Source: Pararhodobacter oceanensis | GTDB taxonomy: Bacteria > Pseudomonadota > Alphaproteobacteria > Rhodobacterales > Rhodobacteraceae | Assembly: GCF_003076755.1 (NCBI RefSeq) | Contig: NZ_QDKM01000003.1 | Location: 1 to 64,000 of the forward strand | Direction of reading: 5' to 3' | DNA length: 64,000 nucleotides | Part shown: one piece after another, positions 32,877 to 49,390 of the stretch | Position numbering within the stretch: the first letter of the stretch is position 1 | Layout of the letters: every line of letters starts with the position of its first letter | Program-made: the position numbers and the translations under genes | The notes under the pieces: generated by a model | The model's database searches: none | Seen by the model: only the letters and a program-made list of their open reading frames with translations | What the model was told of the DNA's origin: nothing

Positions 32877-34241
32877 ATGGGTACGAGCGTTTTTGATTCC
32901 ATTCTTTTGAAAAACTCCTGGTCGACCGAGGAAATGCGCAATGTGTTCAACGACGAGGCCCGCATCCAGCGCTGGCTCGACGTTGAGGCCGCACTCGCCC
33001 TCGTGCAGGCCGATCTGGGCATGATCCCCGCCGAAGCCGCCAAGGAAATCGCCGCCAAGTCGCAGTTCGACCAGATCGATATGGACTATGTCCTGCATCA
33101 TCTGGCGATCACCAAACACCCGCTGGTGCCAGTGGTGCGCGGGCTCGAGCACGCCTGCGAGGGCGACGCGGGCGAATACGTCCACTTTGGCGTCACCACG
33201 CAGGATATCATCGACACCGGCTTGATCCTGCAAATGAAGGACGCCACCGCGATCCTGCGCCGCGACCTTGAGGAAATGGCGGGCTACCTGCTCAACCTGA
33301 GCGTCGAGCACCGCAACACCCCGATGATGGGCCGCACCCTGTCGCTGCAGGCAATCCCGGTCACCTTCGGCTTCAAAACCGCGATCTGGCTGTCGGAAAT
33401 CGACCGTCACCTGCAGCGCCTCGACGAGATGGACGCCCGCGTGTTCGTCGGCTCGATCGTCGGCGCGGTCGGCACCAAAGCCTCGTTTGGCCCGAAAGCC
33501 GACGCGATGGAGAAAGCCGTGAACGAGCGCCTCGGCCTCGGCACGCCGAATATCTCGTGGCAGCCGGCACGTGACCGGATGTATGAATTCGGCGCGGTGA
33601 TGGGCGGCATCAACGCCACCCTGAACAAGATCGGCAACCAGCTGCTGCTGCTCACCCATAACGAATTTGACGAGATCGCCGAGCCCTTCGGTGAGGGTCA
33701 GGTCGGCTCCTCCACCATGCCGCACAAGCGCAATCCGGCGGTCACCGAGAATTCCGTCACGGTCAGCAACACGCTGAAATCCAACATCAATATGATGTCG
33801 GACATCACCAAACACGAGCACGAGCGCGACGGTGCGATCTGGAAGATGGAATGGAAGATCATTCCCGAAATCTGCCTGATGCTCTCGGTGGTCACCGCCA
33901 ATTTGAACTTTGTTCTGGGCGGGCTGGAAGTCAAGAAAACCAGCATGCTGGCCAATCTCGACCTGCTCAAAGGCTACGCACTGGCCGAGCGGGTGATGTT
34001 CGCACTGGCCGACAAGCTGGGCAAACAGACCGCACATGAAGAAGTCTATCACGCGGCGATGAAAGGCATCGAGGGTGGTATTACCTTCAAGGAGGCACTG
34101 GCCGCAAACAAAGCGATCAGCGGCGCCCTGACCGAGGCCGAGCTTGACACCCTGCTGGACGCGACCACCTATGTGGGCGACTCGCCCAATATCGTTGACC
34201 AGTTGGTCTCGGACGTCAAAGCCGGTGGCCGGATCGCCTAA
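32877..34241 (+). CDS. Fumarase/aspartase-superfamily C-N lyase
   Basis: A 454-residue member of the superfamily that holds adenylosuccinate lyase, argininosuccinate lyase, PcaB and aspartase. It has the conserved regions GEYVHFGVTTQDIIDTGL (about 99-116) and GSSTMPHKRNP with catalytic Ser at S278/S279. All family members eliminate fumarate or form a ring at a succinyl centre. It is not in a purine context, so housekeeping PurB is unlikely. Because an MmgE/PrpD gene follows and a TTT importer precedes, the best match is a stereoselective C-N lyase acting on iminodisuccinate-like compounds, releasing fumarate and an amino acid. This substrate is inference. Confidence 0.82.
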   Translation: MGTSVFDSILLKNSWSTEEMRNVFNDEARIQRWLDVEAALALVQADLGMIPAEAAKEIAAKSQFDQIDMDYVLHHLAITKHPLVPVVRGLEHACEGDAGEYVHFGVTTQDIIDTGLILQMKDATAILRRDLEEMAGYLLNLSVEHRNTPMMGRTLSLQAIPVTFGFKTAIWLSEIDRHLQRLDEMDARVFVGSIVGAVGTKASFGPKADAMEKAVNERLGLGTPNISWQPARDRMYEFGAVMGGINATLNKIGNQLLLLTHNEFDEIAEPFGEGQVGSSTMPHKRNPAVTENSVTVSNTLKSNINMMSDITKHEHERDGAIWKMEWKIIPEICLMLSVVTANLNFVLGGLEVKKTSMLANLDLLKGYALAERVMFALADKLGKQTAHEEVYHAAMKGIEGGITFKEALAANKAISGALTEAELDTLLDATTYVGDSPNIVDQLVSDVKAGGRIA

Positions 34242-35929: not shown

Positions 35930-36019
35930 TGGCGGAGACGATGGGATTCGAACCCACGAGACCCTTCCGGGCCTACTCCCTTAGCAGGGGAGCGCCTTCG
36001 ACCACTCGGCCACGTCTCC
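35930..36019 (-). tRNA. tRNA-Ser (anticodon GCT)
   Basis: A 90-nt class II tRNA read leftwards. Acceptor stem GGAGACG pairs with CGTCTCC, discriminator is G and CCA is encoded. The anticodon arm CTCCC-CTGCTAA-GGGAG gives anticodon GCT (AGC/AGU codons), a long variable arm GTAGGCCCGGAAGGGTCTC follows, and the T loop is GGTTCGAATCC. It decodes serine AGY codons. It lies downstream of the LysR gene on the same strand. Confidence 0.97.
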
Positions 36020-36149
36020 GCTGACCCGTTTAGACAGGTAGCATCCGAGAAACAAGGCGAAAATTGTGCTTTTTTGGCCCTGCGCGACATATGTTTGATA
36101 TACATATGTCCGCCGCTCGCGCCACAAACGCCCTCGCTTGAATGGCCTC

Positions 36150-37022
36150 TCATTGCTGCAGCCGGATCCAGTCAACGAAGGCATCAAGGGCGGCGCTGGG
36201 GGATTTGCTGCGCGGAACGGCCAGAAAATACCCGTAGGTCGAGAGATCCTGATCCGACAGCCGGAACAGTTTTTCCTCGCTGATCTCGCTTTGGCTCAGA
36301 TCGTCCATCAACGCCACCCCCTGACCGTCGATCACCGCCTGAACGCGGACGTTGGGATCGGGGATGATCAGCGTATCGCGGCGGGTCTGGCGCGGCAGAT
36401 TGGTCGCGTCGAACCAATCCGACCATGCGTTGCTGTCATCATGATCGCGCAACAGAGTGAATGACGCGAACGCCTGTTCGATCCCCTGCGTCCTGACCGC
36501 CTCGGCGGCGGCGCGGTTGCCCACTGGAAACGCCGGCATCGGCATGAACGGGGTGATCTCGGCATCAGTCCAGTCGCCGTTTCCCCAGCGGATCGCAATA
36601 TCGATCCCTTGTCTTTCCAGATCAAAGAGTTTGATCATCGGCTGGATGCGCAACTGGATGTCGCTATGGGTTTCGAGGAAGGACATCAGCAAGGGCGACA
36701 GCCAGCGCGCCGCGAAATAGGTCGATACACCCACCGTCAGGCTTTGCGTGCTCATGCCCTTAAGCGCGATCAGCGCGCGTTCGATGCTGTGGAAATGGCG
36801 CTGGCCGATGGCCAGCAACTGGCTGCCGCTTTCGGTCAAAGTGACGCCACGGGAACTGCGCTGGAACAGCGTCAGCCGCAGGTCGTCTTCGAGCGTCTTG
36901 ATCTGATAGCTGATCGCGCCTTTGGTCATGTTCAATGCCGCCGCCGCGTCGGAAAAGCTCGGGTATTGAGCGATTTCCACGAACAGGCGCAACCCGTCAT
37001 GATGGCGGAACTTAATAGGCAT
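36150..37022 (-). CDS. LysR-type regulator, GcvA-like
   Basis: A 290-residue LysR regulator of the GcvA subtype. The HTH occupies about 9-68 (LRLFVEIAQYPSFSDAAAAL, then MTKGAISYQIKTLE). The effector domain has the GcvA-type pattern STYFAARWLSPLL and the acidic IDIAIRWGNGDW. It is divergent from the MttB-family methyltransferase gene, and a perfect 10-bp inverted repeat lies between them, so it most likely controls the methyltransferase / GcvT-like pair in response to the methylated substrate or a product. Confidence 0.87.
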   Translation of the reverse strand: MPIKFRHHDGLRLFVEIAQYPSFSDAAAALNMTKGAISYQIKTLEDDLRLTLFQRSSRGVTLTESGSQLLAIGQRHFHSIERALIALKGMSTQSLTVGVSTYFAARWLSPLLMSFLETHSDIQLRIQPMIKLFDLERQGIDIAIRWGNGDWTDAEITPFMPMPAFPVGNRAAAEAVRTQGIEQAFASFTLLRDHDDSNAWSDWFDATNLPRQTRRDTLIIPDPNVRVQAVIDGQGVALMDDLSQSEISEEKLFRLSDQDLSTYGYFLAVPRSKSPSAALDAFVDWIRLQQ

Positions 37023-37034
37023 GAGTGAGCGTAT

Positions 37035-37064
37035 AATTTTCTTGAACGCTGAGACAAGAAAATT
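37035..37064. promoter_or_regulatory. Perfect inverted repeat AATTTTCTTG-N10-CAAGAAAATT, candidate operator
   Basis: Two 10-bp arms (37035-37044 and 37055-37064), exact reverse complements with a 10-bp spacer, lie just upstream of the divergent LysR gene start. The AT-rich dyad with one-turn spacing in a divergent promoter is what a LysR operator should look like. The regulator assignment is inferred from position. Confidence 0.6.
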
Positions 37065-37128
37065 TCGATATCCAGTGATGAATTCCTAGCCAATAGTGCC
37101 GTTACGGGGAAATTGAGGAGGTATTGGG

Positions 37129-38679
37129 TTGGAAAATCTTGACGCTTCAACGCATATTACCAAGCGACACAACACGCGGCGGGGACGATTGGCGCGCCAT
37201 AATGCACCGTTTGAAAGCCCGATCTACCACCGGCGCAAGATCCCCGCATATGCGATGCTTGATGACGCGGCCCTGCGCCGGATCGAGGATCAGGCGGACT
37301 GGATCCTGCACAACATCGGCATCGAGTTTCACGATGACCAGACCGCGCTAGATCTGTTTGCGGCGGCGGGTGCGCAGGTCGAGGGCACACGGGTCAGGTT
37401 CGAGCCGGGGCTTGTGCGCGCGCTCTGTGCGACTGCGCCGCGACAGTTCCGGCTGCATGCGCGCAATCCCAAGAACACCGTCACCCTTGGCGGCGATGAT
37501 GTGGTGCTGATGCCGGGCTATGGTTCGCCCTTCGTGTCGGATCTCGAGCGCGGGCGGCGCTATGCGACCCTTGAGGATTTCCACAACTTCGTAAAACTCA
37601 CCTATGCGGCGCCGAACCTGCACCATTCGGGCGGAACGGTGGTGGAGCCGACGGATATTGCGGTCAACAAACGCCATCTGGATATGGTGCTGGCCCATCT
37701 GACGCTGTCGGACAAGCCGTTTATGGGGAGCGTCACCGCGGTGGAGCGCGCGCAGGACAGTATCGAGATGGCGCGGCTGGTGTTTGGCGCCGGTTTCATG
37801 AGCAGGCATGCGGTGATGCAGGCGAATATCAACGTCAACTCGCCGCTGGTTTACGATCACACGATGTCGGGGGCACTGCGGGTCTATGCGGCAGCCAATC
37901 AATGCGTCTGCGTCTCGCCGGCGATTTTTGCCGGCGCCATGGGGCCTTTGTCACCGGCGGCGGTTGCCGCGCAAACTCTGGCCGAAGCGATGGTCGGCAT
38001 CGCCCTGACGCAGCTTGTGCGCAAGGGCTGCCCGGTGGTGTTCGGCAGCTTCCATTCAACGATGAACCTGCGCTCGGGCGCGCTGACCTTTGGATCGCCC
38101 GAGGCGAATATGACCACCATGGCGATCGCGCAATTGGGCCGCCGTCTGGGGGTTCCGGTGCGTGCAGGCGGCGGGCAGATCACCGCGTCGAATGCCCCCG
38201 ATGCGCAAGCGATGCAGGACAGCGCCGGTGCCATGTGGTCCACGCTGCTGTCGGGGGCGCATCAGGTGTGGCACGCGGCGGGCTGGCTCGAGGGTGGGCT
38301 GGTGATGTCTTATGAGAAATTCGTGCTCGATCTCGATCATTGCGGCGCGATGCTAAAGCTGTTGCAGGGCTTTGGCACCGAGGAGGAGGCCTTTGGCCGT
38401 GATGCCTATCTGGAAACCGGACCCGGCCAGAATTTTCTCTCGACCGCGCATACTTTGCGCCATTACACGACGGCCAATTTCGCCCCCGCAGTACCCGAGG
38501 GCGGCGCGTTCGAGACCTGGCAGGAGAACGGCGCCAAGACCGCCGATCACCGCGCCACCGCCCTGTGGCAAAAGATGCTGGCCGATTACCAGCAACCCGC
38601 CATGGATGAGGCAATCCATAGCGCCCTGACCGCTTTCGTGGCCGAGCGCAAAGCCTCGATGCCCGATGAATGGTATTAG
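37129..38679 (+). CDS. MttB-superfamily methyltransferase, non-pyrrolysine
   Basis: A 516-residue TIM-barrel protein of the trimethylamine methyltransferase (MttB) superfamily without in-frame TAG, hence a non-pyrrolysine member. Such proteins demethylate quaternary amines (glycine betaine by MtgB, proline betaine by MtpB, carnitine by MtcB). Family blocks include ANINVNSPLVYDHTMSGALR and MNLRSGALTFGSPEANM in the barrel core. TTG at 37129 is taken as start because GAGGAGGT lies six bases upstream. A GcvT-like gene follows after 11 bp. No corrinoid protein gene is seen, so the methyl acceptor is uncertain. Confidence 0.87.
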   Translation: MENLDASTHITKRHNTRRGRLARHNAPFESPIYHRRKIPAYAMLDDAALRRIEDQADWILHNIGIEFHDDQTALDLFAAAGAQVEGTRVRFEPGLVRALCATAPRQFRLHARNPKNTVTLGGDDVVLMPGYGSPFVSDLERGRRYATLEDFHNFVKLTYAAPNLHHSGGTVVEPTDIAVNKRHLDMVLAHLTLSDKPFMGSVTAVERAQDSIEMARLVFGAGFMSRHAVMQANINVNSPLVYDHTMSGALRVYAAANQCVCVSPAIFAGAMGPLSPAAVAAQTLAEAMVGIALTQLVRKGCPVVFGSFHSTMNLRSGALTFGSPEANMTTMAIAQLGRRLGVPVRAGGGQITASNAPDAQAMQDSAGAMWSTLLSGAHQVWHAAGWLEGGLVMSYEKFVLDLDHCGAMLKLLQGFGTEEEAFGRDAYLETGPGQNFLSTAHTLRHYTTANFAPAVPEGGAFETWQENGAKTADHRATALWQKMLADYQQPAMDEAIHSALTAFVAERKASMPDEWY

Positions 38680-38690
38680 AAGGAGCAGAT

Positions 38691-39782
38691 ATGACCGAAG
38701 ACCTCAGCCGCAGCTCGGCGCTTGCGTCGCGCCACATTGCCCTTGGATCGGGGCTGGAAGACTGGAACGGGATGGGCACCGCATGGAGCTATGACAGCGC
38801 CCCCAATGACGAACATGATGCGGTGCGTGAGCGCGCGGGGATGTTCGATATGTCGCCGCTCAAGAAGGTCTTTGTGCGCGGCCCCGAGGCGCAGGCGGTT
38901 CTCGATCATCTGACCACCCGCGACATGACCAAACTCGTGCCCGGCAAGGCCACATATACATGCGTGTTGACCGAGCAGGGCGGCATCGCCGACGACGCGA
39001 TCGTGTCGAACAACGGCGGCGATGAATGGATGATCGTACACGGGTCGGGCGATACGATGGCACTGCTTGAGGCCTCGGCACAAGGCCGCGATGTCTCGGT
39101 AGAGTTTACCGATGATTTGCACGATCTGTCGGTGCAGGGTCCGGCGGCGCTGGATATTCTGAACGCCCATTGCGATATGGATCTGGCGAGGCTGGCCTAT
39201 TTTGACCATGCGGCCACGCGGCTCTTCGGTCATCCCTGCCGGATATCGCGCACCGGCTATTCCGGCGAACGCGGCTACGAGATTTTTGCCGATGGCAGGG
39301 TGATCGGCGAGATTTGGGATCGGCTGGTGCAGGCCGGTGTCATGCCTTGTTCGTTCACCGCGCTCGACAAGCTGCGGATCGAGGCGGGGCTGTTGTTTTA
39401 CGGCTATGACATGAGCGAGGACAACACCCCGTGGGAGGTTGGTCTTGGCTTTACTATCGGCAAGAGCAAAGGCGCGTTTCGCGGCAAATCTGCGGTGCTT
39501 GCGGCCAAGGGCGCGCCCGCTGTGGCCAACGTTTGTCTGGACATTGATCACGCGGATATGGTCGCGGGGGGCGAGGTGCTGTCAATGGACGGGGTCGAGG
39601 TCGGGGTGGTCAACAGCCCGTGTTACTCGCACCGGCTGGGCAAGTCCTTGGCCTTGGCGCATATCAAACCGGATATTGCGCTGGGCAGTATTCTGGACCT
39701 GAACGGCGGTGGGATCACCACCACCGCAACCGTGGTTCAAAGCCCGATCTACGACCCCCAGAAATCACGCACACATGCTTGA
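38691..39782 (+). CDS. GcvT/DmdA-fold methyltransferase, tetrahydrofolate-linked
   Basis: A 363-residue aminomethyltransferase-fold protein with the folate-binding domain blocks RAGMFDMSPLKKVFVRGPEA (about 49-68), SRTGYSGERGYEIFAD (about 186-201) and LDKLRIEAGLLFYGYDM near 230-246. GcvT and DmdA relatives move one-carbon units to tetrahydrofolate. The real glycine-cleavage gcvT is at 59338, so this is a specialised paralogue. It is translationally close (11 bp, GAAGGAGC upstream) to the MttB-family gene and probably takes the released methyl or methylene group. A DmdA role in DMSP demethylation is possible but not favoured by the neighbours. Confidence 0.82.
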   Translation: MTEDLSRSSALASRHIALGSGLEDWNGMGTAWSYDSAPNDEHDAVRERAGMFDMSPLKKVFVRGPEAQAVLDHLTTRDMTKLVPGKATYTCVLTEQGGIADDAIVSNNGGDEWMIVHGSGDTMALLEASAQGRDVSVEFTDDLHDLSVQGPAALDILNAHCDMDLARLAYFDHAATRLFGHPCRISRTGYSGERGYEIFADGRVIGEIWDRLVQAGVMPCSFTALDKLRIEAGLLFYGYDMSEDNTPWEVGLGFTIGKSKGAFRGKSAVLAAKGAPAVANVCLDIDHADMVAGGEVLSMDGVEVGVVNSPCYSHRLGKSLALAHIKPDIALGSILDLNGGGITTTATVVQSPIYDPQKSRTHA

Positions 39783-39820
39783 TTGCCGCGTATCGTGCCT
39801 GCATTGCAGCGAGGCGCGAT

Positions 39821-41098
39821 TTACCCCGCGCTGATCGCCTGAACGGCGGCCAGAACGGCGGCTTTGGTTTGGTCCAGATCGTCATTGGTGACGGCCAAAG
39901 ACGGGTAAAGCTTGCCCGGCGATTTGAACACGCCATTGGCGCGCAGCACCCTGTTGTAAAGCGCGTTGCGTTGCGGGTCGTCGTGACGCGCGCTTCGGTA
40001 ATCGCGACAGGGGGATTGCGTGAAAACAATGTCGAAAAGCGTTTCATCGCCGCAAATCTGATGCGCGATTCCGGCGTCTGACAGGGCGGATGTTTGCATG
40101 TCTTGCAGGGTTCTACCGATAGCACGCAGCCTGTCATAGCTCCCATCGCGGCGCAGCACTTCCATCGTCTTGAGCCCCGCCGCCGCCGCCACCGGGTTTC
40201 CAGACAGCGTGCCAAGCTGCATCAGCCATTTGTCAGCGCCGACCACGGATTTGTCAAAATGCCGCATGATTTCGGCGCTCGCCCCAAGGGCTGCCAGAGG
40301 AAAGCCGCCGCCGATGATTTTGCCCAATGTGCAGATGTCGGGGGTCACGCCGTAGCGCTCCTGCGCGCCGCCGTAAGCCAGACGAAAGCCGGTTACGATC
40401 TCGTCAAAGATCAGCAACACATGGTATCGGTCACACAGATCGCGCAGCCCTTGCAGATAGCCGGGTTCGGGCGCGATGATCCGTTGCAAAGGCTCGGCAA
40501 TGATCGCGGCGATGTCATCATGCTCGGCCAGCAGCGCCTCGACCGCCGCCAGATCATTATAGGGCGCGATCAGCATCTGATCGGCGACGCTTTGGGGAAT
40601 GCCCGCGCTGTCCGGCACCGCTTGCGGAAAATTCACGCGGGTTGCGGGCGCGAGGCTCATCTGCGCTTCGGCGCTCATCCCGTGATAGCCGCCCTCGAAC
40701 TTCAGGATCTTGGTGCGGCCGGTATAGGCGCGGGCGAGGCGGATGGCATACATATCGGCCTCGCCGCCGGACGCGACAAACCGGACCTGCTCGCAGCAGG
40801 GCACGGCCTCGACGATCGCCTCGGCCAGTGCAATCCCTTTGGCGTTATTGGCAAAAAACGTCATGCCCTTGGGAAGCTGTTCGAGAACGGCCTCGATGAC
40901 CTCGGGGTGGCCATGCCCCAAAAGCATCGGGCCGGAGCCGATCAGATAGTCGATATATTCCTGCCCGTCTTCATCCCAGACGCGGCTGCCCTCGCCACGC
41001 GCAATGATGATATCGGGGTCGAAATTGCCAAAGCCACCGGCGGGCAAAACCGCCTGCGCGCGGGCGATCCATTCGGATTGAGAGGTCAGTTTCTGCAT
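39821..41098 (-). CDS. Class III aminotransferase / glutamate-1-semialdehyde aminomutase-like
   Basis: A 425-residue PLP enzyme of the class III transaminase group with strongest texture of glutamate-1-semialdehyde 2,1-aminomutase (SGSEATMYAIRLAR equivalent is VASGGEADMYAIRLAR; FEGGYHGMSAEAQ; LLIFDEIVTGFR; PLP Lys in CTLGKIIGGGFPLAAL). The housekeeping HemL would not be expected inside this operon, so it is likely a catabolic aminotransferase or aminomutase that removes or moves the amino group after demethylation. It starts 3 bp after the epimerase stop, as last gene of a leftward operon. Confidence 0.85.
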   Translation of the reverse strand: MQKLTSQSEWIARAQAVLPAGGFGNFDPDIIIARGEGSRVWDEDGQEYIDYLIGSGPMLLGHGHPEVIEAVLEQLPKGMTFFANNAKGIALAEAIVEAVPCCEQVRFVASGGEADMYAIRLARAYTGRTKILKFEGGYHGMSAEAQMSLAPATRVNFPQAVPDSAGIPQSVADQMLIAPYNDLAAVEALLAEHDDIAAIIAEPLQRIIAPEPGYLQGLRDLCDRYHVLLIFDEIVTGFRLAYGGAQERYGVTPDICTLGKIIGGGFPLAALGASAEIMRHFDKSVVGADKWLMQLGTLSGNPVAAAAGLKTMEVLRRDGSYDRLRAIGRTLQDMQTSALSDAGIAHQICGDETLFDIVFTQSPCRDYRSARHDDPQRNALYNRVLRANGVFKSPGKLYPSLAVTNDDLDQTKAAVLAAVQAISAG

Positions 41099-41101
41099 GT
41101 C

Positions 41102-42205
41102 TTAATCCAGTTCTAGAATAGGCGGGCCGAGAATATCCATGTCAGGTGTCACGCCCAGCCCCGCGCCCTCGGGCGGGGCGATGCGGCCCATCTTGCGGGT
41201 GGGGCAATCCGGCGCGATCCTTGGCGAGACATAGGACGACAGATCACAGGTGTTGAGCAATGCCGCCTGCGGCGTTGAGGCGGCGAAATGCAGCGCGGCG
41301 GCGGTGACAATATCCGATCCCCATGTGCATTCCGCGCAGATTTCCGCGCCCAGATGCAGGGCCAGGTCCCGCGCGCGTCGCATCGCTGACAGGCCGCCGA
41401 ACTTGGACAGCTTGAGCGCCACAGCATCCAGCACGCCCAACTCGGCGGCGCGCATCAGGGACGCGAGATCATAGGCGCTTTCGTCAATCTTCATCGGCAA
41501 TCCGGTTGCTTGCCTGACCGCCGCGCAGTCTTCGAGCGACTTGCAGGGTTGTTCCAGCATGATGTCACGATCCGCCACCGCGCGACCGGTGCGGGTGGCC
41601 TGCAGCTTTGTGGCACCGCAATTCCAATCGCCGTAAACCAATGGCCCGTAGCCCACCGCCTCGCGCACGCGGATCAGGCGTTCGGCGTCTGCCTGCCAAT
41701 CGGCATCGGCACCCAGCTTGACCTGAAACTGGCGAATGCCAGTGGCATAAGCCTCTTTGGCGATCCGCGCCATGTCCTCTGGCGCGATGCAGGTGATCGA
41801 ATGATAGAGCGGCATGTCACGGCAGCTGCGCCCGCCCAACAGGGCATAGAGGGGCAGCCCTGTGACCTTTCCATAGAGATCCCAAAGCGCCATATCGACG
41901 ATGGATTTCGCGTGCAGATGCCCTTGCAAAAACCCGTCCAGTTTGCGCATCGGCGCATCAATCCCCAATGGCGTGGTGCCAAGGATTTCGGGCGCCATGT
42001 CCTGAAGTGCGCTTGGCACACCATCGGCAAAGGCGGGCAGGTAATGTGGGATCGGGCACACCTCGCCCCAGCCTTTCAGGCCGGTATCGGTGTCCAGACA
42101 CAGCACGTGGGTTTTGACCGTGTCGCAGGTTTTGCCTTCGGCCATATAGTAGGTGTCATGGCTGGTCAGATCGACGGACCACAGGGTGATGCGATTGACC
42201 TTCAT
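41102..42205 (-). CDS. Enolase-superfamily (MLE subgroup) enzyme resembling hydroxyproline-betaine 2-epimerase
   Basis: A 367-residue enolase-superfamily protein. The N-terminal capping domain is followed by a barrel with general-base candidates in FQVKLGAD (KxK reduced to QxK) and VALKLSKFGG, and metal ligands in YGDWNCGA (D), MLEQPC (E) and KIDESA (D/E). These blocks look like HpbD (4-hydroxyproline betaine 2-epimerase) more than mandelate racemase or muconate lactonising enzyme. Epimerisation of a betaine or N-methyl amino acid would fit the demethylases around it. ATG 42205 is chosen by family N-terminus (MKVNRITLWSVDL) and because it overlaps the stop of a small upstream frame. Confidence 0.8.
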   Translation of the reverse strand: MKVNRITLWSVDLTSHDTYYMAEGKTCDTVKTHVLCLDTDTGLKGWGEVCPIPHYLPAFADGVPSALQDMAPEILGTTPLGIDAPMRKLDGFLQGHLHAKSIVDMALWDLYGKVTGLPLYALLGGRSCRDMPLYHSITCIAPEDMARIAKEAYATGIRQFQVKLGADADWQADAERLIRVREAVGYGPLVYGDWNCGATKLQATRTGRAVADRDIMLEQPCKSLEDCAAVRQATGLPMKIDESAYDLASLMRAAELGVLDAVALKLSKFGGLSAMRRARDLALHLGAEICAECTWGSDIVTAAALHFAASTPQAALLNTCDLSSYVSPRIAPDCPTRKMGRIAPPEGAGLGVTPDMDILGPPILELD

Positions 42206-42435
42206 CGACAGGCCCCCGGATTGTCCGGCGCCTTTGCCTCGGGATGAAGACCCGGCGCGGTGTTTAGGCGCATGTGCAGCCGCGCGGGCCCGCTGAGCGC
42301 GCCGCGGGTGCCATGGCGGATCGAGAGCGCATCCACGGCAGGCGTCGGGCAAGGCCATGCATGCCGCAATGACATTTGCTCATGGTCACCCCGCGCCAAG
42401 CTGCCTGGGGCGTTCAGCCTATCTGGCAAAATCAT
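42202..42435 (-). CDS. Possible 77-residue coupled ORF
   Basis: This frame starts with an ATG that overlaps the stop of the flavoprotein gene (ATGA) and ends with a TGA that overlaps the ATG of the epimerase gene (ATGA). Such double coupling is unusual by chance and suggests a real, or formerly real, small gene. The product is Pro-, Ala- and Arg-rich with three Cys, matches nothing I recognise and has no clear ribosome binding site. It could instead be a translated spacer that keeps ribosomes moving from one gene to the next. Confidence 0.35.
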   Translation of the reverse strand: MILPDRLNAPGSLARGDHEQMSLRHAWPCPTPAVDALSIRHGTRGALSGPARLHMRLNTAPGLHPEAKAPDNPGACR

Positions 42436-44864
42436 GCATCCACCCTCGGCTTCAGGCTTTGCGGGTCATAGGCGGGTTCGCCGAGCACGCGGGCGCGGCG
42501 CGGCGCGCCGTGGATCACCACCTCAAGCGCCGTGTCAGGCTTGGCGGCCTCGGGTTTGATATAGGCAAAGGCCAGTATTTTCCCGACGCTCGGCCCGAAT
42601 GCCACCGATGCAGTTGCACCGACGACCTCGCCCTCCAACATCACCGCCTCGCCGCCGTGGCCATCCGCCTTGCCGTCCGGCTCGATTTCCAGATAGGCGC
42701 AGACCCACCGCAAGTCGGAATTGAGCGTTTCATCACGGCCCAGATACTCCTTGTCGGTGCGGGCAAAGCGCAGCACATCGGCCTCGGCCAAGGTGACTTC
42801 GTTGGTCAACTCGCCTGCGCCTTTGAAGCCCTTTTCCATCCGCATCGCATTCATCGCGAAGGACCCGTAGTCCGTGATGCCCAATGCTTCGCCCGCCGCC
42901 CAGAGCGCGTTATAGACGTCCAGACAGGCGCTGTTTGGCATATGGAACTCCCATCCCAATTCACCGGCGTAGGACATGCGCAGCGCCCAGATGTCATGGC
43001 CCGCCACGGTGATCTGCTGCGCAGACAGCCAGCGGAAGCCGGCGTTGGACAGATCAGCCTCGGTGCAGGCGGCGAGCACGTCGCGCGCCTTTGGCCCGTT
43101 TATCGCCAGCGCCGACCAGTCCGAGGACAGGGCGGTGATCGCGACCTCCTCGCCTGCGCGGTGCTGGTTGAGATGGTCGAGCAGGCGCTGTTCAAAGAAG
43201 GCCGCACACACGAGATAAAACGCATCCTCGGCCATTCGCACAATGGTCGTTTCCAACTCGATCCGCCCGGCGCGGTTGAGCATATGGGTCAGCTTGATCG
43301 AGCCGACCTTCTGCGGCATACGGTTGGCGGTCAGACGATCCAGCAGCGCAAAAGCATCCGGCCCCTCGACCAGAACCTTGGTGAACGCGGTGACATCGAC
43401 GATGCCGACCGCCTCGCGCACCGCTTTCACTTCGGCGGCGACCAGATCATCGACGGGTGTGCGGTTGAAGGAATAGTGATCCTCTTGCGCGATGCCACGG
43501 GCGAAAAAGCGGGGGCGTTCAAACCCGTATACCTCTTCATGAACCGCGCCTTTGGATTTCAGCAACTCATGCAACGGCGAGGGTTTGACGGGCCGCCCGG
43601 CCAATCGGTTGAAATGCGGGAAGGGGATTTCATGGCGCAGGCAATAGTCTTCCTCGGCTTTGACCACCTGCCAACCCTTGGTGGCATAGCTGCCAAAGCG
43701 GCGAGGGTCATAGTCGCGCATGGAAATATCCGCCGCCCCATGCACCATCCAGCGCGCCAGCTCGCGTGTCAGCCCCGGACCCCAGCCAATGCCGATCTGC
43801 GTGCCGCAGCAGCACCAGTAATTGCGCACGCCCGGCGCCGGACCGATCAGCGGGTTGCCATCCGGCGGATGCGAGATTGCGCCGTGGACCTCGCGCTGGA
43901 TGCCGAGCTCCGCAAAGATCGGCATGCGGTTCAGGCTTTCCTCAAGATAGGGCATGACGCGGTCGTAATCGGCGTCGAACAGCCAGTTTTCATACTCCCA
44001 CGGGCAATGATCGTGCCAGACCGAGTTCGGGTTCTCTTTTTCATAAATCCCGATCAGCCCGCGCTTTTGCTCCATGCGGATGTAGCCGGAGACTTTTTTG
44101 TCGTCGCGAATGACCGGCAGTTCCGTGTCCAGCGCCGCGAATTCGGGAACGGGCTCGGTGACAAAGTAATGGTGGGTCATCGAGGTCATCGGCAGTTGCA
44201 GCCCCGACCATTCCCCCATTTGCCGCGCATAGGTGCCGCCCGCGTTAACCACATGTTCGCAAAGAATCGTGCCCTTGTCGGTCTCGACCTGCCACTCACC
44301 TGAGGGCAGTTGCGTGATGTTGGTGGCGCGGCATTGCCGGATGATCCTGACGCCTTTTTGTCGCGCGCCCGCGGCCATTGCCATCGTTACATTGGTCGGA
44401 TCCACATGGCCGTCATCGGGCGTGTGCAGCGCGCCCAATACGCCGTCGAGATTGTAGAACGGGTGCAGTGCAGCGACCCGATCCGGGCCGACCAGTTCGA
44501 TGTTGAAGCCCAGCGCGCGCCCGACCGACAGCGTGTGCCGCAGCCAATCCATCTCGTCTTGCGTATAGGCCAGCCGGAACGAGCCGCAGCCGTGCCATGA
44601 CACGGGCTGGCCGGTTTCCGCCTCAAGCGCGCCGGAATACAGGCCGATGTTGTAATCGACGCATTTGCCCAAGCCATAGCTCGAGGTCGAATGGGTGATC
44701 TGTCCGGCGGCGTGCCAAGTGCTGCCGGAGGTGAGCTCTGCTTTTTCCAGCAAAACCGTGTCAGCGCCCCAGCCCTCATGGCCCAGATGATAGGCAAGAC
44801 CCACGCCCATCACGCCGCCCCCGACGATAACAACACGCGCTGTGGTTGGAAATTCAGAGGCCAC
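42432..44864 (-). CDS. Dimethylglycine/sarcosine dehydrogenase-like FAD and folate enzyme
   Basis: An 810-residue two-part flavoprotein. Residues about 10-400 form a D-amino-acid-oxidase-type FAD domain (VIVGGGVMGVGLAYHL; covalent-FAD type motif SGSTWHAAGQI). Residues about 430-800 form a GcvT-like folate domain (GIVDVTAFTKVLVEGPDAF; RMSYAGELGWEFHM; NAMRMEKGFKGAG). DMGDH and sarcosine dehydrogenase oxidise N-methyl groups and trap formaldehyde on tetrahydrofolate. It leads a leftward operon with the epimerase and aminotransferase-like genes and is divergent from the RpiR regulator. It probably acts on a tertiary or secondary N-methyl amine made by the Rieske enzyme. Confidence 0.88.
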   Translation of the reverse strand: MASEFPTTARVVIVGGGVMGVGLAYHLGHEGWGADTVLLEKAELTSGSTWHAAGQITHSTSSYGLGKCVDYNIGLYSGALEAETGQPVSWHGCGSFRLAYTQDEMDWLRHTLSVGRALGFNIELVGPDRVAALHPFYNLDGVLGALHTPDDGHVDPTNVTMAMAAGARQKGVRIIRQCRATNITQLPSGEWQVETDKGTILCEHVVNAGGTYARQMGEWSGLQLPMTSMTHHYFVTEPVPEFAALDTELPVIRDDKKVSGYIRMEQKRGLIGIYEKENPNSVWHDHCPWEYENWLFDADYDRVMPYLEESLNRMPIFAELGIQREVHGAISHPPDGNPLIGPAPGVRNYWCCCGTQIGIGWGPGLTRELARWMVHGAADISMRDYDPRRFGSYATKGWQVVKAEEDYCLRHEIPFPHFNRLAGRPVKPSPLHELLKSKGAVHEEVYGFERPRFFARGIAQEDHYSFNRTPVDDLVAAEVKAVREAVGIVDVTAFTKVLVEGPDAFALLDRLTANRMPQKVGSIKLTHMLNRAGRIELETTIVRMAEDAFYLVCAAFFEQRLLDHLNQHRAGEEVAITALSSDWSALAINGPKARDVLAACTEADLSNAGFRWLSAQQITVAGHDIWALRMSYAGELGWEFHMPNSACLDVYNALWAAGEALGITDYGSFAMNAMRMEKGFKGAGELTNEVTLAEADVLRFARTDKEYLGRDETLNSDLRWVCAYLEIEPDGKADGHGGEAVMLEGEVVGATASVAFGPSVGKILAFAYIKPEAAKPDTALEVVIHGAPRRARVLGEPAYDPQSLKPRVDA

Positions 44865-44891
44865 GGGATGATCCTTTACATGAGTTGTATT

Positions 44892-44913
44892 TCCTCTCGA
44901 CAGGCTAAGAGGA
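44892..44913. promoter_or_regulatory. Dyad in the divergent flavoprotein/RpiR region
   Basis: TCCTCT (44892-44897) and AGAGGA (44908-44913) form an inverted repeat embedded in a longer imperfect dyad (TTGTATTTCCTCT and AGAGGACAAATATA). It lies between the divergent flavoprotein and RpiR genes and is a reasonable RpiR operator candidate. Confidence 0.4.
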
Positions 44914-44933
44914 CAAATATACCATCGTCAATC

Positions 44934-45821
44934 ATGAATGCGACAAATGTATCAAAAACGATTCTGGACCGTCTTGCCGATGAGCTGTCGGACCTCACCC
45001 CCGAGGCGCGCAAAGCGGCCACCTATGTGCTGGAAAACCCCCGCGATGTGGGGGTGTCCACGGTGCGCGAAATCGCGCTGGCGGCAAAGGTGAAGCCCAA
45101 CACCGTGGTGCGCATGGCACGGCAGGTGGGGTTCGAGGGCTATGAGGATTTCCGCGCACCGTTCCGCGACGCGATTCGCAGTGGTGCGGCGGATTTCCCG
45201 GACCGCGCGCGCTGGCTGCAGGACATTTCCAAATCGGGCGATCTTGGCGGGCTTTACGCCGATATGGTGCGCGATGTGATGTCCAATATCGAGGACACAT
45301 TCGCCGCGATCTCGACGGAGGACCTGAAGACCGCCGCCGATGCCATCTGGAAAGCGCGGCGGGTGTTTACGCTGGGCGTCGGGGTGAACAACTCGGTCGC
45401 GCGCAATTTCACCTATCTGGCCTCCACCGGCATGACCGAATTTCACGCGATCCCCCGCTCTGGATCGACACCGGTGGATGACCTCGCTTGGGCGGATGAT
45501 CAAGACATCCTGATCGCCATCACCTGCAAACCCTACCGCTCGGAAGTTGTCGAGGCGGTGTCGATCGCAAAGGAACAGGGCCTGACCATCGTCGCCCTCT
45601 CCGACAGCCCCGCCAGCCCGATCATTCGCATGGCCGATCACGGGTTTGTCGTCTCCGTCGACACGCCGCAGTTCTTTCCGTCATCGGTCGGCATCATCGC
45701 GCTGCTGGAAACGCTTTTGTCTTTCGTGATTGCGGTCGCCAGCGATGAAATCCCCCAGCGGGTCGAGACGTTCCACAAACGCCGCCACCAGCTTGGCCTT
45801 TACTATGCGGAGGACAAATGA
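44934..45821 (+). CDS. RpiR-family regulator (HTH plus SIS domain)
   Basis: A 295-residue MurR/RpiR-type regulator. The N-terminal HTH is about 10-85 (ALAAKVKPNTVVRMARQVGFEGYEDFR) and the SIS domain about 125-275 (FTLGVGVNNSVARNFTYLAS; DILIAITCKPYRSEVVEAVSIAKEQG). SIS domains usually bind phosphosugars, but several marine RpiR proteins sit in betaine or amino-acid clusters with other ligands. The ATG at 44934 is chosen because the longer frame runs into the divergent flavoprotein gene. Its stop overlaps the Rieske gene start (ATGA), so regulator and demethylase are co-translated. Confidence 0.85.
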   Translation: MNATNVSKTILDRLADELSDLTPEARKAATYVLENPRDVGVSTVREIALAAKVKPNTVVRMARQVGFEGYEDFRAPFRDAIRSGAADFPDRARWLQDISKSGDLGGLYADMVRDVMSNIEDTFAAISTEDLKTAADAIWKARRVFTLGVGVNNSVARNFTYLASTGMTEFHAIPRSGSTPVDDLAWADDQDILIAITCKPYRSEVVEAVSIAKEQGLTIVALSDSPASPIIRMADHGFVVSVDTPQFFPSSVGIIALLETLLSFVIAVASDEIPQRVETFHKRRHQLGLYYAEDK

Positions 45822-46897
45822 CCGAACCCATCAGATCCTTGGCCGCGCGGTATTACACCGACCCGCAGGTGTTCAAACTGGAAACTGCGGGGCTTTTGGC
45901 GCAGACGTGGCAATTTGGTTGTCACGCCTCGGAACTGGCCAAGACCGGCGACTATTCAACCTTTGAAATCGCCGGAGAAAGCCTGTTTGCGATCCGTGGG
46001 CGCGACGACAAGATCCGCGTCTTTTACAACGTCTGCCAGCACCGCGCGCATCAATTGGTCAGCGGCACCGGCACCACCCGCGTGGTGGTCTGCCCCTATC
46101 ACGCCTGGACCTACGAACTGAGCGGCGAGTTGCGCGCGGCCCCCAATATCAACGCCGTCGAAGGCTTCGATAAATCAACCATCTGCCTCAACGAAGTGCG
46201 CGCCGAAGAGTTCCTCGGCTTTGTCTTCGTCAACCTCGACCCCGAGGCCGCACCGATGGAGGAATGGTTTCCCAACGCCCGCGCCGAACTTGAGGAATGG
46301 GTGCCCAATTGGGCCAAACTGAAACCGTTAGAATGGGTGGATATCCCCGAAAACTGCAACTGGAAGGTCTCGGTCGAGAATTACTCGGAATGCTACCATT
46401 GCGCGTTGAACCATTCGACCTTTTCCAGCGGCGTGGTCAAACCCGAGACCTATGACATCCAGCCACAGGGCAAATGCTTGCGCCACACCACCGAATGCCA
46501 AAGCCTCGAGCGCATGACCTATCGTGTGAATTCCGGCTTTGCCCATCAATACGAGTATTCTAGCTGGTTCCTCTGGCCGATGTTCTCGTTTCAGGTCTAT
46601 CCGGGCAATGTGCTGAACACCTACCACTGGCGCGCGGTTGATGCCGATCATGTGGTGGTGTGGCGCGGTTGGTATTCGGTTGACGGGATCGATGACGAGA
46701 AAATCCGCCAGCTGGCAGTGCAGGACCGCCAAACCACAGTTGCCGAAGACATCCGGCTGGTCGAGAGCGTCCAACGCGGCCTTAGGTCTCGCGGCTACAG
46801 GCCGGGCCCATTGGTGGTGGACCCTTGCGGCGGGGTGAACTCGGAGCATCCGGTGATGCATCTGCAGGCTTGGATGCGCGAGGCGATTGATGGGTGA
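45818..46897 (+). CDS. Rieske-type quaternary-amine N-demethylase, oxygenase subunit
   Basis: A 359-residue Rieske non-heme iron oxygenase. The [2Fe-2S] ligands are C73-x-H75 and C92-x2-H95. The catalytic iron region is NYSECYHCALNH with H194 and H199; the residue that bridges to the Rieske centre is E191, where ring-hydroxylating dioxygenases have Asp. Glu at this place is a mark of the quaternary-amine group (GbcA, CntA, stachydrine demethylase). It should therefore oxidatively remove an N-methyl group as formaldehyde. No reductase (GbcB-like) gene is next to it, so electrons must come from a reductase encoded elsewhere. Confidence 0.88.
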   Translation: MTEPIRSLAARYYTDPQVFKLETAGLLAQTWQFGCHASELAKTGDYSTFEIAGESLFAIRGRDDKIRVFYNVCQHRAHQLVSGTGTTRVVVCPYHAWTYELSGELRAAPNINAVEGFDKSTICLNEVRAEEFLGFVFVNLDPEAAPMEEWFPNARAELEEWVPNWAKLKPLEWVDIPENCNWKVSVENYSECYHCALNHSTFSSGVVKPETYDIQPQGKCLRHTTECQSLERMTYRVNSGFAHQYEYSSWFLWPMFSFQVYPGNVLNTYHWRAVDADHVVVWRGWYSVDGIDDEKIRQLAVQDRQTTVAEDIRLVESVQRGLRSRGYRPGPLVVDPCGGVNSEHPVMHLQAWMREAIDG

Positions 46898-47049
46898 CTG
46901 CGCGAGGCTGGGACGCCCCTCGCCGCTTGGACGGCCGACGGCCTTGACCCCGCGATTGCACCGATATCCTGTCTCGGCTGATATTTGGGCCGCGCCCATC
47001 AACGCGAGACACCGTATGACAATCCTCTCTAACCTCGGACTAGACCTGC

Positions 47050-48495
47050 ATGAAAACCTATTGGCAAAACTATATTGACGGCGCTTGGGTCGATGGCGGC
47101 GCGGGGCGGGTGGATATCATCAACCCCGGAGCCGGTGAAAAACTGGCCGAACAGGCGCTTGCGGATGCAGGCGATGTGGACCGCGCGGTGATGGCCGCCA
47201 CCCGCCTGCATCACTCAGGCGCCCTATCGGACCTGCGCCCGGTCGAGCGCGGGCGGATGGTGCAGGCGATGGGCCGCTATCTGCTGGAGCATATCGACCA
47301 GATTGCGCCGGTTTTGACCTTGGAACAGGGCAAGCCGCTCTGGGAGGCTCGCATCGAGGTGGAAGGCGCCGCGCGGTATTTCGAATACTACGGCAATCAG
47401 GCCGAGACGGTTGAGGGCCGCTCGATCCCGCTTGGTAAAGACTATTTCGATTTCACCCTCTATGAGCCCTTCGGCGTCTCGGCGCAGATCATTCCGTGGA
47501 ATTATCCGGTCGAGATGACCGCCCGCTCGCTCTCGGCAGCGCTGGCCACGGGCAACACCTGTGTGATCAAATCCCCCGAACTTACCCCGCTGAGCATCGC
47601 CTGGTTTGCCAGCGCCGCCGAGGCCGCCGGATTTCCCGCAGGGGCAGTGAATATCCTCTGCGGCTGGGGCCATGAGGCCGGCGCCGCGCTCTCGGCGCAC
47701 CCGCATGTCAACCAGATCGTCTTCACCGGATCGGTGCCGACAGGGGTGGCGATTGCCAGCGCCGCGGCCCTAAATGTGGTGCCCTGCGTGTTGGAGCTTG
47801 GCGGCAAATCCGCCGCGATTGTCCATGATGACGCCGATCTCGACGCCTTCGAGACCGATGTTCGCTGGGGGATCTACTTTAACGCAGGTCAAGTTTGCTC
47901 GGCGATGAGCCGGGTGATCGTCCATGAGAGCCTGCATGACGCGCTGGTCGAGCGCATGGTCGGCGTGGCGCAATCGCTGACGGTGAAACCCGGTATCGAA
48001 CAGCCGGAGTTCGGCCCCACCATGGGCGCGATGGTCTCCGAACCCCAACGCGACCGCGCCGCCCGAATGGTCAGTGACGCGCAAGCGCAGGGGGCCCATG
48101 TGGCCACCGGCGGTCACAAGTTGAACCGAGCGGGGGCATTTCTTGAACCCACCATCGTCAGCGGTGTCACCCCCGATATGACCATCGCCAATGAAGAGGT
48201 CTTTGGACCGGTGCTGTCGGTTCTGAGGTTTTCCACCGATGAAGAGGCCATTCGCATCGCCAACGGGACACCCTACGGGCTGGTCGGCGGCGTCTTCACC
48301 CGCAATCTGGACCGCGCCACCAGCGCCGCACGGCGGCTGCGCGCGGGGCAGGTGTTTGTCAACGAATGGTATGCCGGCGGGGTCGAAACGCCCTTCGGCG
48401 GCTATGGCAAATCAGGCTATGGTCGCGAAAAGGGCCGCGAGGCGCTGTGGAACTACGTGCAGACCAAAAACGTCGCAATCAGACTAAGGGGCTGA
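47050..48495 (+). CDS. Aldehyde dehydrogenase
   Basis: A 481-residue NAD(P)-dependent aldehyde dehydrogenase. Family marks are the cofactor region IIPWNYPVEMTARSL, the Glu general base in LELGGKSAAI and the catalytic Cys in YFNAGQVCSAMSR, then EEVFGPVLSV. It resembles betaine-aldehyde / semialdehyde dehydrogenases but exact substrate cannot be read. In this cluster it could oxidise an amino-acid semialdehyde left after demethylation and deamination. It follows the Rieske gene after about 150 bp and is followed after 4 bp by the CMD-family gene. Confidence 0.88.
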   Translation: MKTYWQNYIDGAWVDGGAGRVDIINPGAGEKLAEQALADAGDVDRAVMAATRLHHSGALSDLRPVERGRMVQAMGRYLLEHIDQIAPVLTLEQGKPLWEARIEVEGAARYFEYYGNQAETVEGRSIPLGKDYFDFTLYEPFGVSAQIIPWNYPVEMTARSLSAALATGNTCVIKSPELTPLSIAWFASAAEAAGFPAGAVNILCGWGHEAGAALSAHPHVNQIVFTGSVPTGVAIASAAALNVVPCVLELGGKSAAIVHDDADLDAFETDVRWGIYFNAGQVCSAMSRVIVHESLHDALVERMVGVAQSLTVKPGIEQPEFGPTMGAMVSEPQRDRAARMVSDAQAQGAHVATGGHKLNRAGAFLEPTIVSGVTPDMTIANEEVFGPVLSVLRFSTDEEAIRIANGTPYGLVGGVFTRNLDRATSAARRLRAGQVFVNEWYAGGVETPFGGYGKSGYGREKGREALWNYVQTKNVAIRLRG

Positions 48496-48499
48496 AAAG

Positions 48500-48880
48500 A
48501 TGAGCGCATTTGATGAAGACCTGTTCCTCAAGGGGCTGGAGCAACGCAAATCGACGCTGGGCGCGGAATATGTCGAAAAGAACCTCGCCGCGGCAGATGA
48601 GTTTACCCGCCCGTTTCAAGAAGCGATGACGGCGTGGTGTTGGGGCTTTGGCTGGGGCGATGATGTGATCGACGCCAAGACCCGCTCGATGATGAACCTG
48701 TCGATGATCGGCGCCTTGGGCAAGATGCACGAATGGGAAATCCATTGCCGCGGCGCGATCAACAACGGCGTCACTCAGGATGAAATCCGCGCAATTATCC
48801 ACGTCATCGGCATCTATTGCGGCGTCCCGCAAGCGCTCGAGTGTTTCCGCGTGGCCCGCAAGGTTCTCGAGGCACCTTAA
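48500..48880 (+). CDS. Carboxymuconolactone decarboxylase-family protein
   Basis: A 126-residue CMD/AhpD-fold helical protein. It resembles PcaC (gamma-carboxymuconolactone decarboxylase) in size and in the block AKTRSMMNLSMIGALGKMHEWEIHCRGAINNG and the C-terminal VIGIYCGVPQAL. PcaC works in the 3,4-cleavage branch, which is absent here; the aromatic pathway in this window is 4,5-cleavage. It follows the aldehyde dehydrogenase by 4 bp, with AAGGGGCTG as ribosome binding site, and so belongs to the amine-catabolic operon. Its reaction there is unknown. Confidence 0.82.
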   Translation: MSAFDEDLFLKGLEQRKSTLGAEYVEKNLAAADEFTRPFQEAMTAWCWGFGWGDDVIDAKTRSMMNLSMIGALGKMHEWEIHCRGAINNGVTQDEIRAIIHVIGIYCGVPQALECFRVARKVLEAP

Positions 48881-49390
48881 CCCGCCCTGAACCACGCGCC
48901 TTTTGAGACATTGACACAACGCGCTGAGGCGCCGGATTGCGGCTGGGCGCAGAGTTTGGCTGAGGCCAAAGCTCACGCCGCCGCACCCTTCGCACTCGGT
49001 CCGCTCTAAATTCCATAGGCCAAGCGGTGATGACACGCACCGATCGGAGCGTTGAAGCTGTGACGAAGCCCCTGCCCCCGTCGCACTCTCGCCCGCGCCA
49101 ACTGCTCACCAGAGCGCGGCGGGCCGCGGGGCGACGTGCGCCCGATACCCCACTCTGACGCCGCAGCGCGGCACCTCCCTGCCCAACCCGCAACCAACAT
49201 GACCGTTAGCGCTCGATTCGGGCACCGGCAGCCCGTGCACCTGTAGCGCCGGGCCGTAAATCAACCCGTCGCAACATCACCGTAAATTCAACCGCATATC
49301 CACGCGGAACCTGCATCGAATTGATGACATTGCGCCATCGCTCTGTAAAGCTACCGCGATATCGTCGGTCATAATCTACGGAGGGCATTG
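48881..49390. other. Gene-free region upstream of urease
   Basis: No supportable gene; small Arg/Pro-rich frames here lack ribosome binding sites and family resemblance. The right end (about 49250-49385) is AT-richer and should hold the urease promoter; GGAGGG at 49380-49385 is the ureA ribosome binding site. Confidence 0.5.

Follow-up and report, generated by a model that had tools for sequence, protein, structure and literature searches.

A conserved marine gene cluster in Pararhodobacter oceanensis whose predicted enzyme classes fit catabolism of a chiral quaternary ammonium compound

Genes at the locus

The window analyzed here is a 64,000-nucleotide stretch of Pararhodobacter oceanensis DNA (contig NZ_QDKM01000003.1, positions 1 to 64,000), in which the span 36150-48880 holds ten genes, identified from open reading frames (ORFs) together with Pfam and NCBIfam scans. 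They constitute two separate gene sets and not one pathway: unit A (36150-39782), with a methyltransferase of the MttB superfamily, and unit B (39821-48880), in which two divergent operons encode, among others, a Rieske oxygenase and a flavoprotein resembling dimethylglycine dehydrogenase (DMGDH). The original prediction for this span had read it as a single eleven-gene pathway for a chiral N-methylated, betaine-like compound. The gene classes that it named are present, including the aminotransferase-like enzyme, the aldehyde dehydrogenase and the CMD-family protein; an eleventh gene was not found by either means of identification, and the independence of unit A from unit B rules out the single pathway. 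In the list below, counts out of 49 refer to the full named loci defined in the next section, and GSAM denotes glutamate-semialdehyde aminomutase.

36150-37022, minus strand: LysR regulator, unit A (Pfam LysR_substrate and HTH_1); orthologues at 60-62% identity lie beside MttB and GcvT in loci L191, L192 and L194
37129-38679, plus strand: MttB-superfamily methyltransferase, unit A (PF06253, 692 bits; no internal stop)
38670-39782, plus strand: GcvT-like folate-binding protein, unit A (GCV_T, 238 bits); matches at 77-83% adjoin MttB in L191, L192 (a 135-residue ORF only) and L194
39821-41098, minus strand: GSAM-like class III aminotransferase, left operon of unit B (Pfam/NCBIfam; 44 of 49)
41102-42205, minus strand: MR/MLE enolase-superfamily protein, type A, unit B (Pfam, catalytic residues; 47 of 49)
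42432-44864, minus strand: DMGDH-like flavoprotein with folate domain, unit B (4pab, E 3.8e-146 over residues 4-801; 47 of 49)
44865-44933, no strand: divergent control region, with two -35/-10-like pairs facing each other, each with a 17-bp spacer, and a partial palindrome in between
44934-45821, plus strand: RpiR-family regulator, HTH_6 and SIS domains, unit B (Pfam; 48 of 49)
45818-46897, plus strand: Rieske oxygenase, CntA-like, with Tyr189 and bridging Glu191, unit B (structure matches, residue alignment)
47050-48495, plus strand: aldehyde dehydrogenase, unit B (PF00171, 513 bits; 27 of 49)
48500-48880, plus strand: CMD-family protein, PcaC-like, unit B (117 bits, below the PcaC cut-off of 155.7; 36 of 49)

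The MttB and GcvT genes overlap by 10 bp, and the RpiR stop overlaps the Rieske start by 4 bp. The conserved protein of the unit B enolase begins at MKVNRIT and does not use the longer ORF start at 42358.

Conservation of unit B and independence of unit A

Two sets of genomes were compared. A scan of named genomes gave at least 550 Rieske relatives, and the best 80 of these are the named loci, some of which end at contig edges; 49 of them are full, with at least 9.5 kb to the left and at least 5 kb to the right of the Rieske gene. Counts for the 49 take any accepted identity, and gene counts for the 80 require at least 45% identity unless stated. The family set comprises 198 genomes, that of P. 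oceanensis included, and its loci are stretches of 34 of the 37 other Rieske-bearing genomes, two of those omitted sitting on contigs shorter than 5 kb and the third near a contig start. The 114 loci (80 named plus 34 family) come from overlapping sets (L043, for instance, is the contig of L086), so that the rows are not independent.

Rieske orthologues (52-100% identity) occur in 38 of the 198 family genomes, own included, with the next matches at 40% or below. Across the 80 named loci (number among the 49 full ones in brackets), RpiR is found in 75 (48), the DMGDH-like protein in 68 (47), type A enolase in 61 (47), the GSAM-like protein in 58 (44), CMD in 54 (36), type B enolase in 47 (34), MDR in 41 (33), aldehyde dehydrogenase in 37 (27), an arylmalonate-decarboxylase-like protein in 26 (15), a sulfotransferase-like protein in 25 (15), type C enolase in 22 (17), a GFA-type (formaldehyde) protein in 12 (10) and DddQ in 6 (17); a BCCT transporter lies in 2 of the 49. 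The number of enolases per named locus varies, with none in 13, one in 22, two in 25, three in 19 and four in one of the 80, contig-cut loci included. Searched for in other genomes, seven of the ten genes are thus kept together as a cluster, along with a control region that they share and that is itself conserved; by this synteny unit B is a conserved pair of divergent operons in the Roseobacter group and some other marine bacteria. The betaine transporter that was to be looked for next door in relatives is found sparsely: 2 of 80 named loci have a BCCT gene inside the cluster, and 3 of 34 family loci have one in the fetched stretch, one of these, L062, being on the same contig as the named locus L150.

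About one third of the named loci have inside the cluster an arylmalonate-decarboxylase-like gene (as in L061:10980-11813, with a weak Pfam score of 26.7 bits), and about as many a sulfotransferase-like gene (as in L062:15581-16327). One unit B cluster, L145, belongs to a metagenome-assembled genome labelled Halieaceae, a gammaproteobacterium, and may represent transfer or misbinning.

The 69 bp between the DMGDH-like and RpiR genes could be compared across 106 of 115 loci (the window counted among them), giving 94 unique ends, over which the 37 bases 5' of the RpiR ATG are strongly conserved and the outer bases less so. The rightward promoter-like pair is TCGACA-17-TACCAT, and the leftward pair, on the other strand, TTGACG-17-TTAGCC. 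Between them lies the partial palindrome GnACAtaTGTAC, 58% complementary, the best of all arms tried (mean 25%, standard deviation 9%), though less regular in the window itself. A sigma-70 consensus scan of 36000-49000 found three sites against a mean of 4.2 (standard deviation 2.0) in shuffles, and at the control region reported only the right-hand pair; given this lack of excess, the promoter reading rests on conservation. The rightward -10-like box stops 8 bases short of the ATG, and the RpiR mRNA may accordingly lack a leader.

Unit A has a different distribution. MttB orthologues at 63-80% identity occur in 4 of the 197 other family genomes, none of them adjoining a Rieske orthologue. G190 and G059 carry the MttB unit and the Rieske gene on separate contigs, and different genes flank the unit on its right; in G009 and G101 no Rieske match above 37% was found (E 1e-60). 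LysR, MttB and GcvT stand together among other neighbors in L191, L192 and L194, the GcvT of L192 being the 135-residue ORF only and the MttB of L194 containing two stops. In L193 a LysR gene (53%) lies upstream and GcvT was not called, but the simple gene caller missed MttB there too. Among the 80 named unit B loci, matches to MttB, GcvT and LysR at 45% identity or more number zero for each; below 45% two loci match MttB, one GcvT and one LysR (26-36%), and the 49 full loci include one MttB (30%), one LysR (26%) and no GcvT match. Because the three genes are present elsewhere without unit B and absent at this threshold from unit B loci, unit A is a separate methyl-transfer unit that adjoins unit B. 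The methyl-transfer genes and the two regulators of the original prediction exist, with only RpiR a member of the conserved cluster. The MttB protein is not of the pyrrolysine type, since its gene has no internal stop, and no corrinoid protein was found adjoining it; the only B12-binding_2 match in the genome lies on a different contig. The same genome contains seven MttB-superfamily genes and this one B12-binding_2 protein (G000:C2:363155-363373), as if one corrinoid protein served many methyltransferases.

Specificity of the Rieske oxygenase

The solved protein nearest to the unit B Rieske oxygenase is CntA (E 3e-62, residues 11-351). In a fold search with its AlphaFold model, CntA chains also come first, with 34% identity to CntA as against 22% to stachydrine demethylase; the model has a medium pLDDT of 70 (37-49 for the other four) and served for fold matching only. 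According to the available part of PMC7948474, position 203 divides the Rieske enzymes acting on quaternary ammonium compounds, an aromatic residue typifying group Va (carnitine, choline, benzalkonium) and Asn the group Vb demethylases. The window protein has Tyr189 at the position of the cation-binding Tyr203 of CntA, as in group Va, with Tyr in 113 of the 114 loci and His in one. The bridging Glu191, part of the original prediction, is found together with Asp311 in 114 of 114 loci, and histidines 194 and 199, the iron ligands, line up with their CntA counterparts. The window motif is ENYSECYHC, compared with ENNRECYHC in stachydrine demethylase (3vca/4qup) and in 3n0q. Group Vb N-demethylases such as GbcA and Stc2 are ruled out as a class by Tyr in place of Asn, so that the predicted Rieske enzyme is borne out in fold and bridging residue, and its assignment to the N-demethylases is not.

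Closeness to CntA raises the possibility that unit B degrades carnitine or gamma-butyrobetaine, with a CntA-type enzyme followed by a malic-semialdehyde-type aldehyde dehydrogenase. No solved structure is closer than CntA, which matches along nearly the entire Rieske protein, an aldehyde dehydrogenase gene lies directly downstream, and some loci include a BCCT transporter. Yet six of the seven substrate contacts named in the accessible text of PMC7948474 are replaced (Y225 by T, F258 by Y, a mild change, N270 by Q, Y295 by R, Y315 by D and F319 by T) and only Tyr203 is kept, which makes the enzyme CntA-like and not CntA. The window's cluster also lacks a reductase gene, and R. pomeroyi raises CdhABC on carnitine (PMC12478193, in the portion available). 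We regard the carnitine explanation as quite improbable.

Several of the replacements are in turn constrained: Y247, Q259, R283, D303 and T307 show no variation across the 114 loci, and Q259, R283, D303 and T307 differ from CntA. Twelve Rieske paralogues (34-38% identity) all carry an aromatic residue at 189 and lack both R283 and D303, and a more distant relative in the same genome (28%) keeps the Tyr and Arg and not the Asp. Tyr189 in an invariant pocket unlike that of CntA, with paralogues lacking R283 and D303, indicates that these enzymes form a distinct specificity group, most likely C-N cleaving.

The other unit B enzymes

The DMGDH-like protein joins DAO, FAO_M, GCV_T and GCV_T_C domains in one chain, the domain composition of the DMGDH family. 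Solved dimethylglycine dehydrogenases match it over the full length, 4pab among them, and the GSTWHAAG stretch, whose His presumably holds FAD, is kept; the predicted class, a DMGDH-like flavoprotein with a folate domain, agrees with this sequence evidence. The aminotransferase is nearest to GSAM, but membership in hemL is ruled out by scores below both cut-offs (TIGR00713, 359 against 527 bits; PRK00062, 382 against 398). Alphaproteobacteria produce 5-aminolevulinate via 5-aminolevulinate synthase, and a catabolic role for the GSAM-like protein is therefore likely.

In the type A enolase of the window the two catalytic lysines and the full set of MLE-subgroup metal ligands are present, as expected of an epimerase, and the Tyr56 position is kept. 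Its nine matches at E 1e-40 include 4e8g, 2pmq and 4h2h, labelled in the PDB as mandelate racemase/MLE only, which we take to be HpbD. At the position of HpbD Trp320 (a number that we assume to denote a residue of the cation cage) type A enolases have Cys in 23 of 23 cases, type B Trp in 14 of 16 (Leu in 2) and type C Thr in 10 of 10. The Cys rules out HpbD membership: the epimerase-type residues of the predicted HpbD-like enzyme are present, and a plain HpbD analogue it is not. Its score against the cis-3-hydroxyproline dehydratase model NF043002 is 314 bits, below the cut-off of 500. Types B and C closely match 3eez (699 bits) and 2rdx (639 bits), respectively, two solved structures named by superfamily only.

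These features bear on a proline-betaine or hydroxyproline-betaine variant, in which an epimerase would be followed by a Rieske demethylase and then by demethylation of N-methylproline. The presumed HpbD structures among the enolase matches, the lysine pair and the Tyr56 position speak for it; the Cys at the Trp320 position (numbered as above), the Rieske protein with Tyr for the Asn of Stc2 and with lower identity to stachydrine demethylase than to CntA, and the Pfam scans of the window's cluster, in which no proline or hydroxyproline catabolic gene was seen, make it very unlikely. Cyclic betaines, proposed earlier as candidate substrates, are likewise not favored, since the Rieske protein lacks the Asn of the Stc2-type demethylases.

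A DddQ-type cupin in related clusters

At any accepted identity, a DddQ-type cupin lies inside the unit B cluster in 22 of the 80 named loci, that of Ruegeria pomeroyi included. The 197-residue cupin of these relatives is DddQ-like (PF16867, 58 bits for one, cut-off 27; best structure 5cu1), and the columns of Tyr120, His123, His125, Glu129, Tyr131 and His163, listed in the available part of PMC4437653 and assigned here by their spacing, do not vary among the eight cluster cupins compared. In R. pomeroyi SZCCDBG043 (L131) the cupin between the GSAM and enolase genes equals the 5cu1 dimethylsulfoniopropionate (DMSP) lyase at 190 of 201 positions. A model of the eight cluster cupins gave 41 matches of at least 100 bits in the 198 family genomes, 16 of them within 10 kb of a Rieske orthologue; eight of the 16 are the model's own rows, so that by a tally from two tables 8 of the 33 others are near a Rieske gene. 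A further 22 cupin matches, from 21 loci, were read: 7 have other cluster genes beside them (at least 60% identity) and 15 do not; three more were left unread. A tandem DddQ-like pair in L200 (9586-10766, genome G086) lies about 115 kb from the Rieske cluster on the same contig, with an MDR fragment, a distant enolase, MttB and LysR 5-10 kb to its left.

One explanation of these cupins is that unit B handles DMSP or another sulfonium compound, DddQ, known for cleaving DMSP, naming the substrate and the other enzymes acting on its relatives. Besides the DddQ-like gene in 22 of 80 named loci, the R. pomeroyi dddQ mutants support it, making 97% less dimethyl sulfide (DMS), as does the induction of dddQ by DMSP in R. 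pomeroyi and Roseovarius nubinhibens, both from the portion of PMC5395565 at hand; these two results favor a real role of DddQ with DMSP. Set against it are the Km of 22 mM given in the same part of that paper, a dddQ response to DMSP of 1-4 fold as against 40-fold for dddW (PMC4437653, in part), and the failure of the R. nubinhibens MDR gene to restore acrylate resistance (PMC3338564, in part). One table of PMC9769926, seen within a partial text, has dddQ transcripts shifting by 1.9-fold at most and those of dddW by up to 21-fold. DddQ is also undetected in 58 of the 80 named loci, some ending at contig edges, and in the own genome at E 1e-12. We consider the sulfonium explanation unlikely.

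The position of DddQ inside the cluster in those 22 loci suggests that it has, or had, a role in a quaternary-amine pathway. It is conceivable, if doubtful, that DddQ belongs to such a pathway by ancestry and first acted, by beta-elimination adjacent to a carboxylate group, on an intermediate of the betaine type that the Rieske, enolase and MDR proteins produce or consume; DMSP cleavage would then be secondary, and window-like clusters would have lost or never gained the branch.

The cluster of L131 also abuts SoxB/SoxA-type genes (L131:11594-16700), probably the mgd operon, which begin 66 bp after CMD on the same strand. Since Mgd takes part in homarine catabolism (PMC13390433, available in part), unit B might be the recently reported homarine operon described otherwise. 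SoxB-type genes adjoin the cluster in only 1 of the 114 loci searched, however, which speaks against this linkage as a trait of the cluster, and the SoxA matches (23-30%) are nearly all the cluster's own DMGDH; homarine, moreover, is achiral and has a single N-methyl group, which Mgd would handle. Little probability attaches to the homarine reading.

Proposed pathway and substrate

What the sequence itself shows is which genes are present, how far they are conserved, that they share a control region, and what the enzyme classes and key residues are; from these we infer a mechanism and a substrate. Taken together, the predicted enzyme classes fit the breakdown of a quaternary ammonium compound that has a proton-bearing stereocenter next to a carboxylate, as the original prediction of a chiral N-methylated, betaine-like substrate had it. 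From the synteny, the Rieske residues and the CntA fold match, the full-length DMGDH match, the catalytic residues of the enolase, the control region, and the presence of BCCT in 2 and GFA in 12 of the 80 named loci, we lean modestly towards unit B, as divergent operons beside one RpiR gene, degrading a quaternary ammonium osmolyte with a carboxylate. The enolase-superfamily protein would equilibrate the stereocenter adjoining the carboxylate, and the CntA-type Rieske enzyme, with a reductase encoded elsewhere, would oxidize a carbon on the quaternary nitrogen and split the C-N bond to yield an aldehyde and a methylated amine. The DMGDH-like protein could then move the remaining N-methyl groups of a tertiary amine onto folate, the GSAM-like aminotransferase shift or remove the freed amino group, and the aldehyde dehydrogenase oxidize the aldehyde.

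Several observations weigh against this pathway. The unit B loci have no conserved transporter, and the window's unit B no reductase gene, six FAD_binding_6 proteins elsewhere in the genome being the only candidates. Aldehyde dehydrogenase was not detected in 22 of the 49 full named loci, so that its step is either not universal or done elsewhere. The Rieske enzyme may yet be an N-demethylase, as the Tyr/Asn rule comes from few characterized enzymes (PMC7948474, in the part available), and the CdhABC response already cited speaks against carnitine itself in R. pomeroyi.

Nearly all of the enzymes would find a use if the substrate were a beta-amino-acid betaine, for example the trimethyl-beta-alanine head group of DGTA, an algal lipid; this is a bare conjecture to which we give scarcely any credence. 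More generally, a conserved marine cluster of this kind suggests that the turnover of some osmolyte or lipid head group has so far gone uncounted. As a DMSP lyase lies inside the cluster in the genetically tractable R. pomeroyi, the substrate of the cluster and the purpose of DddQ, whose reported affinity for DMSP is poor, could be found together.

Neighboring genes

Upstream of the span lie genes for a lyase and an MmgE/PrpD protein and a tRNA-Ser; downstream of 48880 are urease genes, recognized from their translations by eye. The lyase (32877-34241), which the MmgE/PrpD gene follows, is nearest to the 3-sulfopropionylcysteine synthase XcbD (478 bits, cut-off 600) and passes the purB cut-off (338 against 326). 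The tRNA-Ser(gct) at 35930-36019 is 130 bp from the stop end of the unit A LysR gene and is a possible insertion point for unit A.

Comparison with known systems

No ortholog cluster with an assigned substrate covering all the genes was found in the literature, where journal coverage was partial and most results were off subject; gene-neighborhood remarks in earlier work on DddQ and HpbD may anticipate part of the findings. The unit A MttB resembles the MtgB/MttB-superfamily demethylation systems of R. pomeroyi and Eubacterium (PMC12478193, as far as available) in lacking pyrrolysine, and differs in having a GcvT-like partner and no adjacent corrinoid protein. The available part of PMC3338564 links dddQ of R. 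pomeroyi DSS-3 and R. nubinhibens to an MDR gene. The R. pomeroyi dddQ cluster in L131, a strain other than DSS-3 in which an MDR gene was not found, is of the unit B type, with the DddQ cupin between the GSAM and enolase genes, whereas the window copy is without DddQ, MDR or an extra enolase.

For the individual enzymes, likeness in class is combined with differences in detail. The HpbD betaine epimerase (4e8g and 4h2h, presumed names) and the related 4mgg share with the window enolase the MLE subgroup, the lysine pair and the metal ligands, the enolase differing by its Cys at the Trp320 position. CntA (6y8j, 6y9d) matches the Rieske protein over residues 11-351 and shares the bridging Glu, the 2-His-1-Asp site and the Tyr203 equivalent, but in unit B the six other substrate contacts are replaced, several of the replacements being invariant, and a reductase gene is not adjacent. 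Dimethylglycine dehydrogenase (4pab, 4p9s, 5l46) aligns with the unit B flavoprotein from end to end, GSTWHAAG included, the difference being that the unit B protein adjoins a Rieske oxygenase and an epimerase-type enolase.

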